From assembly GCA_003224145.1 (NCBI GenBank), contig QHYN01000205.1, forward strand, positions 1 through 50,403: a DNA stretch of 50,403 bases, written 5' to 3'. The translations under genes and the position numbers were made by a program. The notes under the pieces were generated by a model. That model saw only the letters and a program-made list of their open reading frames with translations. It had not been told where the DNA came from and made no database searches. Source of the stretch: Acidobacteriota bacterium. Lineage in GTDB: Bacteria; Acidobacteriota; Terriglobia; Acidiferrales; UBA7541. How positions within the stretch are numbered: position 1 is the first letter of the stretch; each line of letters opens with the position of its first letter. Shown in pieces: positions 26,333 to 31,397 of the stretch.

Positions 26333-26635
26333 TTTATTTCCTCTCTTCTTGTGTGAGTTGGGTTGCAAGGCGCGGGAACTTGCCCCGGAGCCGGATCGCG
26401 TGTGGCGGCCTTGCTCCATCCCATCCCAAAGTTTCTGTTCGAACCGTGGCTCAGAAAGATAGGGGCTTGCGTTACGACAGGAAAGACGAATTGTTACAGA
26501 GCCATCAAAAGTGGGATTCTGTACTAGAACTGAATCCCGCGCGATTGAATCGTGTGTAGCGTCTCGGGGCAGGAAATGCATTCATTGTGCCCGGCTCCCA
26601 GCGTACTTTAGAATGGAATCGGCAATTGCTTGCAC
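26333..26635. other. Intergenic region with stem-loop
   Basis: About 300 bp between the truncated phosphoesterase and the MscS gene. It holds a 9-bp stem with one T-G wobble (26511-26519 with 26532-26540, 12-base loop) without a T-run. No gene or clear promoter was recognised. Confidence 0.4.
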
Positions 26636-28480
26636 ATGAGATCGAGGCAAAAAATCGGCGCGATTGCGCTGGTGCTCCTCCTGGGCACCGCCGTTTACGG
26701 CTTAATCCGCACTGCGCAGCCCCCCCGCGCGCCGCGAAACACGGGCGGTGTTCCAGGAGCCGCGCACGCTTCCGCCGTCGACCAGACTCCAATTCTCACG
26801 GCGCTCAAATTAGCGCAAATGGCCGCAACGGCCGAGGAGCTGCCATTTGCACAGGAGGCGCTGCGCATTGCCGATCATGAGATGGATCTGGCCTACGCAG
26901 CGGCGGAGCGCGAACTCGAGGAGCATCCGGCTCCACTGAGCGCCGACGCGAAAAAGATCCAGGAACGGCTGAAACAGGCGGAGGATGCGCTGGACGCGGA
27001 CAACACACAGGTCGCGCGGCTGACCGCCGAGGAAGCCAAGGCTACTGGCGCAAAAAAGGACGCATTGGACGATCAACTTGTCTTGGCTACAGCTCACCAG
27101 GAGGAACATCAGGACGAAGTGGATGACGCGAAGGAGGATTTAGCCCGTGCGGGCGGCGATCCAAACGCCCGCATCGAAGCCATGGTCCAGGAACATAAAG
27201 CTTCTTCGCAGGCGATTGATAACTTGCACATCGGAGTCAGCACGGCCGTCGAAGAGCGAGGCCTGCTTCATCGCTACACCCAATGGTCGGCTCTGCATCA
27301 GAAGCAGGCTCTCTTGTGGGAAGCGAAACAGCAGGCGGAGTCCTCGGCCGCGTCTTTTTCGGCGAAGCACAATGCGCTGGACGCGCAGGTCGAGGCAGAA
27401 AAAAAGAGCGTGTCGCATTCCGCTGAAACTCCGAGCGCCGCCGAATCCTCCACCGGCGAGGGAACGCCCGCGAAACTAAGACGAGAAGATTCCGCAGCCC
27501 TGGTGAAAGCGGCCAAGCGGCGCGCCGCGAGTCAGAAGACCCTCGCGTCGTGGGATAAAAGAATCGAGAATGAGAAACAACTTGCCGAAAACTATGGGAA
27601 ATGGATCGGCGTGTTGGCCGCAAAACAACGCGCGGTTCTGCACGCCGCGCTGATCGGTGTCATCACCATTCTCGGCATTTTGCTCATTGGAATCTTTTTT
27701 GATTCGTGGCTCGAGCGGCTTCTCGGCAAGCTATCGCTAGATCGCCGCCAAGTCGAAACATTGCGCACCGTAACGCGCGTTGCGGTGCAAGTGTTTGCGG
27801 TGCTTTTTATCTTGCTCGTGATTTTCGGGCCGCCGGGACAGCTTGGCACGGTTCTGGGGCTCGCCGGCGCCGGCCTTACCGTGGCACTCAAGGATTTCAT
27901 CGTCGGCTTCCTCGGCTGGTTCGTGCTAATGGGGAAAAACGGCATCCGCCTCGGCGATTGGGTGGAAATCAATGGCGTGACCGGCGAAGTGGTCGAGCTT
28001 GGTATGTTCCACACCGTTTTGCTGGAGACCGGCAACTGGACCGATTCCGGTCATCCGACCGGCCGGCGTGTGACCTTCACCAACAGCTTCGCCATCGAAG
28101 GCCACTATTTTAATTTCTCGACTTCCGGCCAGTGGCTGTGGGATGAATTGCAAGTGGTGCTTCCTACCGGGCGGGATCCGTATCCGATCATCGATGCGAT
28201 TCAGAAGAAGGTCGCTGAAGCGACGACCGAGAGCGCAAAGCAGGCCGAGCACGAATGGAAAAGCGCAGCCCGATCTCGAGACATGAGCTCGCTGACGGCT
28301 GCGCCGGCGATCAATGTCAAGCCCGTGGTTGGCGGGGTCGAGATTGCCGTGCGTTATGTCACGCGCGCCAACGAGCGCTACCAGTTGCGCGCCAAACTCT
28401 ATCAGGCAGCGGTCGATCTCCTCGGGCAGAAATCAGTGGCCTCGCCGGCCGCCCCGGTGGCCCGCCCATCTTCCGACTAG
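26636..28480 (+). CDS. MscS-family channel with long periplasmic coiled coil
   Basis: A 614-residue membrane protein. An N-terminal hydrophobic segment (residues about 8-25) precedes a long Ala/Glu/Lys-rich helical region (about 70-330) that would be extracytoplasmic. Three membrane helices follow, the last being the pore helix GTVLGLAGAGLTVALKDFIV, then the MscS beta-domain with IRLGDWVEINGVTGEVVELGMFHT and VTFTNSFAIEG. It is likely a mechanosensitive or osmotically gated channel. Starts at ATG 26636 (TTG 26630 possible). Its TAG stop lies in the CTAG flank of a mini-element. Confidence 0.85.
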   Translation: MRSRQKIGAIALVLLLGTAVYGLIRTAQPPRAPRNTGGVPGAAHASAVDQTPILTALKLAQMAATAEELPFAQEALRIADHEMDLAYAAAERELEEHPAPLSADAKKIQERLKQAEDALDADNTQVARLTAEEAKATGAKKDALDDQLVLATAHQEEHQDEVDDAKEDLARAGGDPNARIEAMVQEHKASSQAIDNLHIGVSTAVEERGLLHRYTQWSALHQKQALLWEAKQQAESSAASFSAKHNALDAQVEAEKKSVSHSAETPSAAESSTGEGTPAKLRREDSAALVKAAKRRAASQKTLASWDKRIENEKQLAENYGKWIGVLAAKQRAVLHAALIGVITILGILLIGIFFDSWLERLLGKLSLDRRQVETLRTVTRVAVQVFAVLFILLVIFGPPGQLGTVLGLAGAGLTVALKDFIVGFLGWFVLMGKNGIRLGDWVEINGVTGEVVELGMFHTVLLETGNWTDSGHPTGRRVTFTNSFAIEGHYFNFSTSGQWLWDELQVVLPTGRDPYPIIDAIQKKVAEATTESAKQAEHEWKSAARSRDMSSLTAAPAINVKPVVGGVEIAVRYVTRANERYQLRAKLYQAAVDLLGQKSVASPAAPVARPSSD

Positions 28481-28584
28481 TGCCGTTCCAACTTATTACG
28501 ACAAGGCCCCGTCCAAACCGCATCCACCAAACCGGCAAGGATAGAGTTTTTCGCTTTTGCTGCATTTAGTTGGAACGGCACTAG
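28477..28584. mobile_element. MITE-like 100-bp element with CTAG flanks
   Basis: Perfect 17-bp inverted repeats, CTAGTGCCGTTCCAACT at 28477-28493 and its complement at 28568-28584, enclose 74 bp. Because CTAG is its own complement, the element can be read as 100 bp (28481-28580) with 13-bp terminal repeats and a 4-bp CTAG target duplication, as for some IS5-like transposons. The inside holds no ORF. The MscS stop codon lies in the left CTAG and is preserved with or without the insertion. Confidence 0.6.
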
Positions 28585-28602
28585 ACGGCGCGATCTCGAA
28601 GC

Positions 28603-29913
28603 TTATCGAATGAGTTGGCGCGCCCGGATAGCCGACACTGTTGCTCCCGTGTAGAGCAGTGCCAACAGCGCGTACCCGGCGACCAGACCCGCTCCCTGCG
28701 CAACCCAGCCAAGCGCAAAGCTCATCAGGAGCTGCACGACAGTCGTCAGAATGGCCATCGCCGATTGCGTCCGGCCCATGAAATGCCTCGGCACTATCGA
28801 CATCAGCGAAGACTGCGCCACCACGCCGCCCAGGGCGCGGCAGGATCCGAAAAGCACCTGCATCATCACCGCCCCTGCGAGAAAGGCAACGAATGGAGTC
28901 GCCATGTGGCCCGCCGCAAGAACGGCGCAGGCCGCCACGTAGAGCGGCATGCGCTTGGCGCCGGGAAGCTGGCTGGCAATCAAGCCACCGCAGATCGCGC
29001 CGGTAGCCCAGCCTGCTTCCAGAAAGCCCAGACCACGCGGGCCGGCACGAAGAATGTCGTTTGCCAGGGCCACCAGCACAACGTTGGCGCTGACTACGCC
29101 CGCCATCATGATGGAATGCGTTACGCCGAGCGCACGTACCAACGGCTGCTGCCTCAGATAGGCGAAGCCTTCGCGCATGTCTGCGTAGACGGCGAGCGAA
29201 AGCCCAGCCTCCGCTACCTCCGGGACTTCTCCGCTTTCCAGTGCCTCGGCCGTCGCCTCGGTCGCTTCGTTGAACTCCCGCGGATATTTTTGGCGGTCGC
29301 GCGGTGAAACATATCCCCGACGCATTCGGTACAGGCAATAGCCCGAAACGAAATAGGTGGCGCCATCGATCGCCAGGATGCCGGCGATCCCGGCCGTATT
29401 GTAAATGAAACCCACGAACCCGCCGGCAATCAGCATTCCGCTCTGCACGCCGATCAACACGGCGGCATTTGCGCCAGTGAATTGACTTGAGGGAATGACT
29501 TCCTGAACCAGCGCGTTCACCGTAGCCCAATACATCGCAGAGCCAGTCCCGGTGATCAGCGTCATGCCATAGAGATGCCAGAGCTGCAGGTGCCCGCTCC
29601 AGGCGATGTAGCCGGTTAGTAGCACGAAGCAGCCGCGCACGAGATCGAGCAAGACGCCCAGGTAGCGCCTGTCAAAGCGGTCGATGAGTACGCCTCCGAG
29701 GAACGGCACGAAAAGACCCGGAACCGTCATCCCAATGACCTGCCAACTGACTTTGACGGTCGAGTGTGTCGTGGCGAGGATGTACCAACTCACCCCCGCA
29801 AAGTTCATGCCGCTGCCGAAGAGCGACACAAACATGGCGACAAAAAAATAGCGGAATCCTCGCTGCGCCCAGATTAGCGTCCAGTCGACTCGCTGTGTCG
29901 TCGCCGTTGCCAT
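28603..29913 (-). CDS. MFS transporter (enterobactin exporter EntS-like fold)
   Basis: A 436-residue protein with about 12 membrane helices. It opens with LIWAQRGFRYFFVAMFVSLFG and has the MFS motif-A-like loop GGVLIDRFDRRY after helix 2, plus a charged central loop (about residues 190-235). This layout fits MFS_3-type exporters of the EntS/macrolide class; substrate unknown. Start ATG 29913 is preferred over upstream extensions lacking homology. It faces the MscS gene across the MITE-like element and is divergent from the DUF3052-like gene. Confidence 0.85.
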   Translation of the reverse strand: MATATTQRVDWTLIWAQRGFRYFFVAMFVSLFGSGMNFAGVSWYILATTHSTVKVSWQVIGMTVPGLFVPFLGGVLIDRFDRRYLGVLLDLVRGCFVLLTGYIAWSGHLQLWHLYGMTLITGTGSAMYWATVNALVQEVIPSSQFTGANAAVLIGVQSGMLIAGGFVGFIYNTAGIAGILAIDGATYFVSGYCLYRMRRGYVSPRDRQKYPREFNEATEATAEALESGEVPEVAEAGLSLAVYADMREGFAYLRQQPLVRALGVTHSIMMAGVVSANVVLVALANDILRAGPRGLGFLEAGWATGAICGGLIASQLPGAKRMPLYVAACAVLAAGHMATPFVAFLAGAVMMQVLFGSCRALGGVVAQSSLMSIVPRHFMGRTQSAMAILTTVVQLLMSFALGWVAQGAGLVAGYALLALLYTGATVSAIRARQLIR

Positions 29914-30011
29914 GGAGCCCTTTAGCTTACTATTGTGGACAGCATCGATGCGGGTACGCGCCGTCGAAGAGTTACGCGTTTCCGACAAATTGGCCGGACA
30001 GGTGAGGCGCC

Positions 30012-30697: not shown

Positions 30698-31397
30698 ATG
30701 AGCGCTTTGCTCGAGGTGCGCGGGCTCACGGTGGAACTGCCCACCGCCGAAGGGTGGGTGCGGCCGGTAAACGAAGTATCGCTGAGCATCAACGCGGGCG
30801 AATCGCTGGGCCTAGTCGGCGAATCCGGAAGCGGCAAGACGATGCTTTCGCTGGCGATGATGGGACTGCTTCCACCGGGCGCGCGAGTCAGTGGCGAGGC
30901 GACGCTGGGGGCCGAATTGCCAGTAAAAAAATTGACCGCGCTGAGTGAGCGGGAATGGCGCGAAGTGCGCGGTGGCCGGATTGCCATGATCTTTCAGGAG
31001 CCTATGACCTCGTTGAATCCGGTAACGCGCATCGGCGCGCAGGTTGAAGAAGCCATCCGCGCGCACCACCCTCAACTCTCATCCAGCGAAGTCAAGCGCA
31101 AGACCCTCGAGTCCTTGCGCCTCCCCGCTATCCCTGAACTCGAGGTCCGCGCCGGACAATTTCCGCACCAGCTTTCCGGCGGTCTTCGCCAGCGCGCCAT
31201 GATTGCCATGGCTCTTTCGGCGGGGTCCGCCGCTGCTGATCGCCGACGAGCCGACGACTGCGCTCGACGTTACCGTGCAAAAACAAATTCTGGCCTTCCT
31301 GGACCGTCTCCGCCGCGAACTTCAACTCGGCTTGCTCTTCATTAATCCCTACACGCGCGAACTGCTCGCCGCCGTCCCGGAACTTCCCCGTGCCTGA
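30698..31397 (+). pseudogene. Decayed oligopeptide ABC transporter ATPase (OppD/DppD-like)
   Basis: The first frame (30698 onward) has a good ATPase N-terminus: Walker A GESGSGKTM, Q-loop IFQEPMTSLNPV and signature [15 protein letters not shown]. At a GGGG run (31222-31225) an extra base shifts the frame; the continuation [20 protein letters not shown] (Walker B, D-loop) is in the +1-shifted frame up to 31397. There, LLFI is joined directly to [14 protein letters not shown], so about 50 residues including the switch histidine are missing, and the C-terminus is short. The frameshift alone might be a sequencing error, but the internal deletion supports real decay. No Opp permease genes are nearby. 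Confidence 0.8.

Follow-up and report, generated by a model that had tools for sequence, protein, structure and literature searches.

How did a short sequence with perfectly inverted ends come to lie exactly at the stop codon of an MscS-like channel gene, and which enzyme could have moved it? Within the 50,403-bp stretch of DNA analyzed here (the window), positions 28477-28584, read directly from the sequence, consist of CTAG-TGCCGTTCCAACT-74 bp-AGTTGGAACGGCA-CTAG. The channel gene (ORF at 26630-28480 on the + strand; Pfam MS_channel_2nd, E 3.8e-7) terminates in a TAG at 28478-28480 that is contained in the left CTAG (28477-28480), and an MFS gene on the opposite strand (28603-29988) lies 3′ of the insert. 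Between the two CTAGs is a 100-bp unit (28481-28580) made up of a left terminal inverted repeat (28481-28493, + strand), a 74-bp interior (28494-28567) and a right terminal inverted repeat (28568-28580, - strand), followed by the right CTAG (28581-28584); repeat and CTAG together form perfect 17-bp inverted arms. The first-pass annotation had described a 100-bp unit with perfect 13-bp terminal inverted repeats and CTAG flanks that sits at the MscS stop while preserving it, and both descriptions hold in the sequence. Even if two mismatches are allowed, the 13-mer occurs at no third place in the window. With terminal inverted repeats that enclose a short non-coding stretch, the insert shows a defining feature of MITEs, and with good confidence we interpret it as one: a non-autonomous passenger of a very small GIY-YIG transposon family mobilized by the nuclease. 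Elsewhere in the window, an ORF resembling an oligopeptide ABC transporter ATPase (30698-31345) shifts at its end to an unrelated reading, a frameshift-like change judged by eye.

The first-pass annotation further judged that the structure fits a non-autonomous mobile element, and proposed looking for similar copies in the genome and in relatives. Uniqueness within its own genome (G000; 4.79 Mb, 359 contigs) was ruled out by contig C84, where another copy has a similar interior (88% identity across 112 of 121 bases), and by other end pairs: the exact 13-mer occurs in at least 14 places, several of them pairs ~100 bp apart with other interiors. Allowing one mismatch gave 25 matches versus 13 for the reversed control; given this background, the analysis relies on exact or paired matches. 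Some match was found in 7 of the 41 genomes of the relatives search (own genome included), and G005 carries three near-full copies (91-94% identity) in different places. In the class, 21 of 299 genomes carry the paired core at a spacing of 60-90 bp (131 pairs by summed counts), the richest being G025 with 39 pairs and G005 with 21, while the reversed control of the paired core gave 0 in every genome listed in this search.

These short copies share their ends and their length. CTAG flanks both sides of 69 of the 106 distinct short copies (loci fetched), and 85 of the 106 measure 99-104 bp (one base beyond each 13-mer included), with 102 bp (42 copies) and 103 bp (23 copies) the most frequent lengths. 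This peak holds only inside the range of ~86-116 bp that the class search admitted; when exact ends were sought in G025 and G005 at any length, those listed also included pairs of ~60 and 125-340 bp. Interiors are not shared by most copies and fall into many groups that appear unrelated by eye. At two places in G025 (contig C82, 3406-3610, and contig C85, 7-211), two left ends are followed by two right ends within ~200 bp, as if a short element were nested in another.

The MscS 3′ junction was compared in relatives, as had been suggested for the locus. Part of the MscS-MFS region is matched in 34 of the 36 genomes of the genus, and the flanks lie close together without the insert in 11 examined loci (G048, G012, G044, G043, G017, G018, G041, G023, G024, G011 and G005); G048 and G012 run from ...TCTGATTAG and ...TCCGATTAG, respectively, directly into the spacer, with no insert. 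The remaining relatives have longer spacers at this junction or match on one flank only. Similar copies elsewhere, together with insert-free junctions that retain a single stop, bear out the earlier reading of a non-autonomous mobile element, and dispersed copies with empty orthologous sites are likewise a property expected of MITEs.

A parent transposase had also been expected; longer elements with the same ends do exist, but they encode a GIY-YIG nuclease and not a conventional transposase. Longer units bounded by the insert's ends were found on contig C349 of the own genome (319 bp) and in G035 (303 bp, with one base of the ends changed); the latter encodes an 88-residue GIY-YIG protein and the former the same kind of protein, frameshifted. 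A pattern search, which matched 1 of 95 genomes of the order, yielded a third element in G048. When the protein was searched for in 61 genomes, five of the six best matches (G035, G012, G050, G048 and G000) had the insert's ends and the sixth (G044) had ends of another type, whereas most of the weaker matches examined lacked strong repeats. The longer coding elements with the insert's ends are thus ~300 bp long, with a single gene for a GIY-YIG nuclease of 80-88 residues, and we infer that they represent the parent, although their autonomy is not shown. A nuclease profile was further run against 25 genomes (the 21 with short copies and 4 others; part of the listed matches examined), of which 7 gave a match with the insert's ends: the gene is open in G035, G012, G048, G050 and G181, frameshifted in G000, and interrupted by an internal stop in G075, where a single end was found. 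No nuclease with the insert's ends was present among the matches examined in G025 and G005, the genomes with the most short pairs. Since only 7 of 25 genomes have an end-bearing nuclease, two of them broken, the mobilizing enzyme is so far absent, diverged or unassembled in most present-day carriers. Three more distant GIY-YIG genes of relatives (L068, L069 and L084) lie within other inverted repeats, which suggests further families of the same layout.

Assignment of the protein to the GIY-YIG superfamily rests on its catalytic domain and conserved motif residues, both of which are present. Pfam identified GIY-YIG (PF01541, E 5e-12 to 5e-16) in all four nuclease elements tested (one case also T5orf172), and Y3, Y5, G18, R26, H30 and E50 are invariant in 8 of 8 nucleases; the catalytic residues are presumably among these six. 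The predicted structure (mean pLDDT 88.5) matched UPF0213 protein BH0048 (1zg2) first among solved structures (E 3e-4), followed by Slx1 (E 0.04 and worse) and, weakly, I-TevI, and sequence comparison to solved structures agreed, with BH0048 again the top match (E 1.1e-7). NCBIfam named none of six nucleases above its cut-off. The nuclease pairs shown have a dN/dS below 1; the five closest (dS under 0.7) range from 0.11 to 0.43, and the median is 0.25 over all pairs with dS under 1.5. As far as these pairs allow, the nuclease appears to be conserved by selection; most of them overlap and are near saturation, and only five have dS under 0.7.

Because CTAG is self-complementary, a target duplication cannot be demonstrated from the window copy alone, and both of its CTAGs are inferred to be duplication copies from the non-palindromic flanks of sister copies, which include CTGG/CTGG, CCAG/CCAG, CGAG/CGAG and TTAG/TTAG. 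Among 105 short copies (the nested duplicate L236 left out), identical non-CTAG flank tetramers were direct in 6 cases and inverted in 0 (permutation mean 0.64, p 5e-5), which rules out, for the insert's family, that CTAG forms part of the inverted repeats; a permutation that counted CTAG matches as hits gave 7 observed versus 5.98 expected (p 0.38). Beside the ends of GIY-YIG loci (orthologue L135 left out), identical non-palindromic direct tetramers occurred at 8 of 51 (permutation mean 0.92; 0 of 20,000 permutations as high) and vanished entirely once the frame was slid by 1 to 3 bases, while inverted tetramers occurred at 2 of 51 versus a permutation mean of 5.9. Two loci counted as duplications, L103 and L109, are similar records and perhaps not independent.

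A nuclease element also offered an empty site. In G048 it reads AACGTTTAG-element-TTAGGAGG, placed at a stop codon and before an apparent ribosome-binding site of the next gene, and G012 has a nuclease element at the same place. The corresponding empty site, AACNTTTAGGAG, contains one TTAG in seven relatives (G041, G047, G016, G010, G013, G049 and G024), in all of which the two flank alignments overlap by exactly 4 bases; the site is CTAG in G000 (overlap 3) and, by eye, in G018, and other sequence separates the flanking genes in G023, G044, G021, G011, G017 and G043. At five loci (L358, L361, L362, L363 and L365) this junction holds ~60-140 bp of other sequence, seemingly unrelated by eye, and it may be a place that collects insertions. 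Taken together, the flank comparisons support a 4-bp duplication directly beside the ends in the insert's family and its nearest kin. The 4-bp target duplication that had been proposed for the insert is thereby upheld through sister flanks and the single TTAG of the nuclease element's empty site, the same evidence by which this MITE property is met, and remains unresolvable at the palindromic window copy itself. There, a 2-bp TA duplication within CTAG cannot be excluded, but it would leave the TTAG/TTAG cases unexplained.

How the short copies arose can be traced for some of them. Interiors matched nuclease elements at E <= 0.01 in 12 of 106 short copies (several weakly), compared to 0 of 106 reversed interiors. 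The clearest relation was between a 110-bp unit of G074 and the 5′ part of a nuclease element (81 bp at 84%, E 6e-21): the unit has the ORF start MNYSYVLLSDQDGRFYIGS and encodes the nuclease's N-terminal 19 residues, after which it passes abruptly into the right end. Judged by such alignments, internal deletion of nuclease elements gave rise to some of the short copies. The interior of the window copy gave no match to nuclease elements, and its tie to them runs through its ends, the flank rule and its kin on C84 and in G005.

Insertion beside a stop codon is not peculiar to the MscS gene. The preferred target includes TAG, and insertion at a TAG stop therefore leaves the stop intact. With ORFs judged by open frame alone, 74 of the 163 sides that could be tested around short copies have a flanking TAG that terminates a frame of 90 or more open codons; among other CTAG sites within those flanks the count is 29 of 150, and 68 of 94 elements have such a frame on at least one side. 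This enrichment could stem from either target choice or selection.

To describe the wider family, we scanned GTDB genomes, which yielded 425 nuclease relatives, and kept the best 80 of the 425 (these loci overlap in part with those of the 61-genome search, the same elements appearing in both). Inverted repeats lie within 120 bp on both sides of 59 of the 80, compared to 0 of 285 random control positions in the same loci; the other 21 fell below the repeat threshold (score 11), and in five of these (L105, L147, L157, L163 and L165) degenerate ends of the same type are still visible by eye. End types include TGCCGTTCC, CCCCGATCC, CCCGTTAGACC, CCYGTTARA and CCYGTGARATA. Mapped on the nuclease tree (83 columns, most forks unresolved), repeat type required 23 changes, whereas shuffling gave an average of 43.8 and none of 200 shuffles fell as low, and a single clade for the TGCC type was not rejected (p 0.82), while the CCYGTGARATA type is unclustered and scattered on the tree (8 changes for 8 rows). 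By this mapping, repeat type broadly follows the nuclease tree; the 27 rows labelled "none/other" comprise the 21 under threshold and 6 with repeats outside the register. Repeats were found under phylum-rank names including Acidobacteriota, Planctomycetota, Verrucomicrobiota, Bacteroidota, Myxococcota and Omnitrophota, and in several Patescibacteria lineages.

In the genomes of L136 and L139, short pairs of the CCCTGTTAAATA type measure 137-149 bp in 12 of 16 cases, and the pairing of a nuclease element (here ~285 bp) with shorter passengers thus recurs. A direct 4-bp duplication was not seen at this place in CCYGTTARA-type elements, whose outer bases, TTCA on one side and TAAAT on the opposite side, look as if they belonged to the element in a fixed orientation; the border of this type is therefore unsettled and may lie beyond the inverted repeat. 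At L330-L349 (G318-G322), which include short and long copies of the CCCTGTTAAATA type, the outer flanks are likewise element-oriented in most, with TTCA beyond one end and TAAAT beyond the opposite one. A plasmid or phage vehicle found no support, as 72,556 plasmid and 50,697 phage records contained no tblastn match to one nuclease of the Patescibacteria type; viral contigs held 1 nuclease relative and 1 short pair.

We propose that the nuclease would bind the 13-bp ends and excise the element at its borders, and would open a fresh target, in most cases CTAG, by a cut staggered by 4 bases, upon which host ligase and gap repair would join the element to the target and create the 4-bp duplication. 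Short elements that share these ends, usually ~100 bp long, would be mobilized in trans. GIY-YIG enzymes are known as hydrolytic nucleases, and strand joining must therefore be supplied by the host or by an unknown chemistry. Sequence comparison shows the ends, the precise insertion, the 4-bp duplication, the dispersed copies, the linkage of these ends to GIY-YIG genes and the rise of some short copies through internal deletion; that the GIY-YIG protein is the mobilizing enzyme, the order of cuts and the host ligation are inferred without experiment, and that the nuclease moves the elements we consider likely.

Three other accounts of these observations were weighed. That the unit is an immobile terminator or structured RNA conserved at the MscS 3′ end is invited by its strong 17-bp stem directly after the stop codon, and the insert strand does fold better than shuffled sequence (z -4.81; 0 of 200 shuffles as good). 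We nevertheless hold this account to be very improbable, and regard it as ruled out by the absence of the insert in relatives, copies at other loci that combine the same ends with different interiors, and the lack of any Rfam match (up to E 1 over 28400-28660); the 4-bp duplication also stands against it. Quite unlikely, in our judgement, is that a conventional DDE transposon (for example of IS5 or IS630 type) carries both the short and the GIY-YIG elements as passengers, with GIY-YIG as mere cargo. Elements of the IS5 or IS630 types favor YTAR/CTAG or TA targets, and a CTAG-type target with short inverted repeats would be ordinary for them; moreover, an intact cognate GIY-YIG element did not turn up in most genomes that carry short copies. 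Against this, GIY-YIG is the sole gene of ~300-bp elements across many phyla, and no element combining the insert's ends with a known transposase was found among the places examined. DDE_Tnp_1 (PF01609), the only DDE family searched, has no match in G005 despite its 21 short pairs, and of 36 PF01609 loci listed in G000, G025, G169 and G181, the 30 examined include none with the exact end core or bounded by the insert's ends; one of them (L434) has a left end and a right end (at most 2 mismatches), which point away from each other. Among the long convergent end pairs fetched from G025 and G005, some enclose an aminotransferase gene or a Band_7 gene, another resolves into two separate copies of ~100 bp that have base changes in one end, and a 339-bp pair contained no nuclease or transposase gene that we could find. 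A DDE transposase with the insert's ends was thus not found at the examined PF01609 loci or long end pairs, and a transposase of DDE, HUH, serine or tyrosine type enclosed by these ends, the broader mark of an insertion sequence, was absent from the four elements examined by Pfam and from the places examined. An unseen conventional transposase remains possible as the mover.

The third account, which we deem unlikely, likens the nuclease to RAYTs: an enzyme flanked by its own repeats spreads short palindromic units while hardly moving itself. Its layout is that of RAYT genes, which PMC2817692 describes as lying between two inverted REPs that co-evolve with them. The presence of one GIY-YIG element at the same place in G012 and G048 would fit, as would the fact that we found no genome with two nearly identical full-length nuclease elements in separate places. 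Yet nuclease elements have sharp borders and 4-bp duplications at differing places, with one clean empty site, and an end type can reappear in distant phyla. In our preferred reading, the nuclease moves both its own element and the short passengers, and these elements probably constitute a new class of DNA transposon: ~300 bp long, with a GIY-YIG protein of 80-88 residues as sole enzyme, co-evolving ends and a 4-bp duplication, present in many phyla including Patescibacteria.

If true, this would be the first transposon moved by a GIY-YIG enzyme alone, accompanied by a retinue of ~100-150-bp passengers that includes the insert. Transposases fall into DDE, HUH, serine, tyrosine and Cas1-like classes, to which a mobile element relying on GIY-YIG only would add another, and it would lower the size needed for autonomy to ~300 bp; to our knowledge, no smaller autonomous transposon has been described, provided that the GIY-YIG element is autonomous. 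Stop-like targets (CTAG, TTAG, CTAA, TGAA and TGAG) would permit landing at gene ends without breaking genes. Such elements could also account for many small GIY-YIG genes in environmental genomes and for the short inverted-repeat units that surround them. Searches of the open PMC literature turned up, as far as titles and the beginnings of abstracts indicate, no description of such elements (subscription papers and preprints were outside this scope). A 2006 survey of the superfamily (PMC1564403) raised the question of whether, besides homing and restriction enzymes, other members behave as molecular parasites, and the GIY-YIG elements make this question directly testable.

Several known systems share parts of this picture. 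Like bacterial MITEs, the short copies are small and dispersed, have inverted ends and a target duplication, and include some clear internal deletions of a coding parent, but the parent here encodes a GIY-YIG nuclease and no known transposase. Small UPF0213 and Slx1-like GIY-YIG proteins are the best sequence and fold matches of the nuclease, and we know of no inverted-repeat element context for them. In RAYT/REP (REPIN) systems, one enzyme gene likewise lies between inverted repeats that also occur as short units, and repeats and enzyme co-vary; RAYTs, however, are related to IS200/IS605 tyrosine transposases, a requirement not met here, where Pfam gives GIY-YIG and 4-bp duplications are present. 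GIY-YIG homing endonucleases of the I-TevI type share the nuclease superfamily and a selfish mobile context, but, according to PMC1564403, they copy their element into a cognate allele; insertion at one cognate site is not what we observe, as the elements occupy many sites within inverted-repeat bounds and the flanks of the copies share, by inspection, only a common 4-bp target. Penelope-like elements, as outlined in that survey (PMC1564403), have a GIY-YIG endonuclease thought to start insertion, but also a reverse transcriptase, which is missing from the GIY-YIG elements described here. Finally, the Tsy transposon also places a GIY-YIG nuclease on a bacterial transposon, but there, by its description (PMC10293859), movement depends on a tyrosine recombinase and the nuclease is dispensable.
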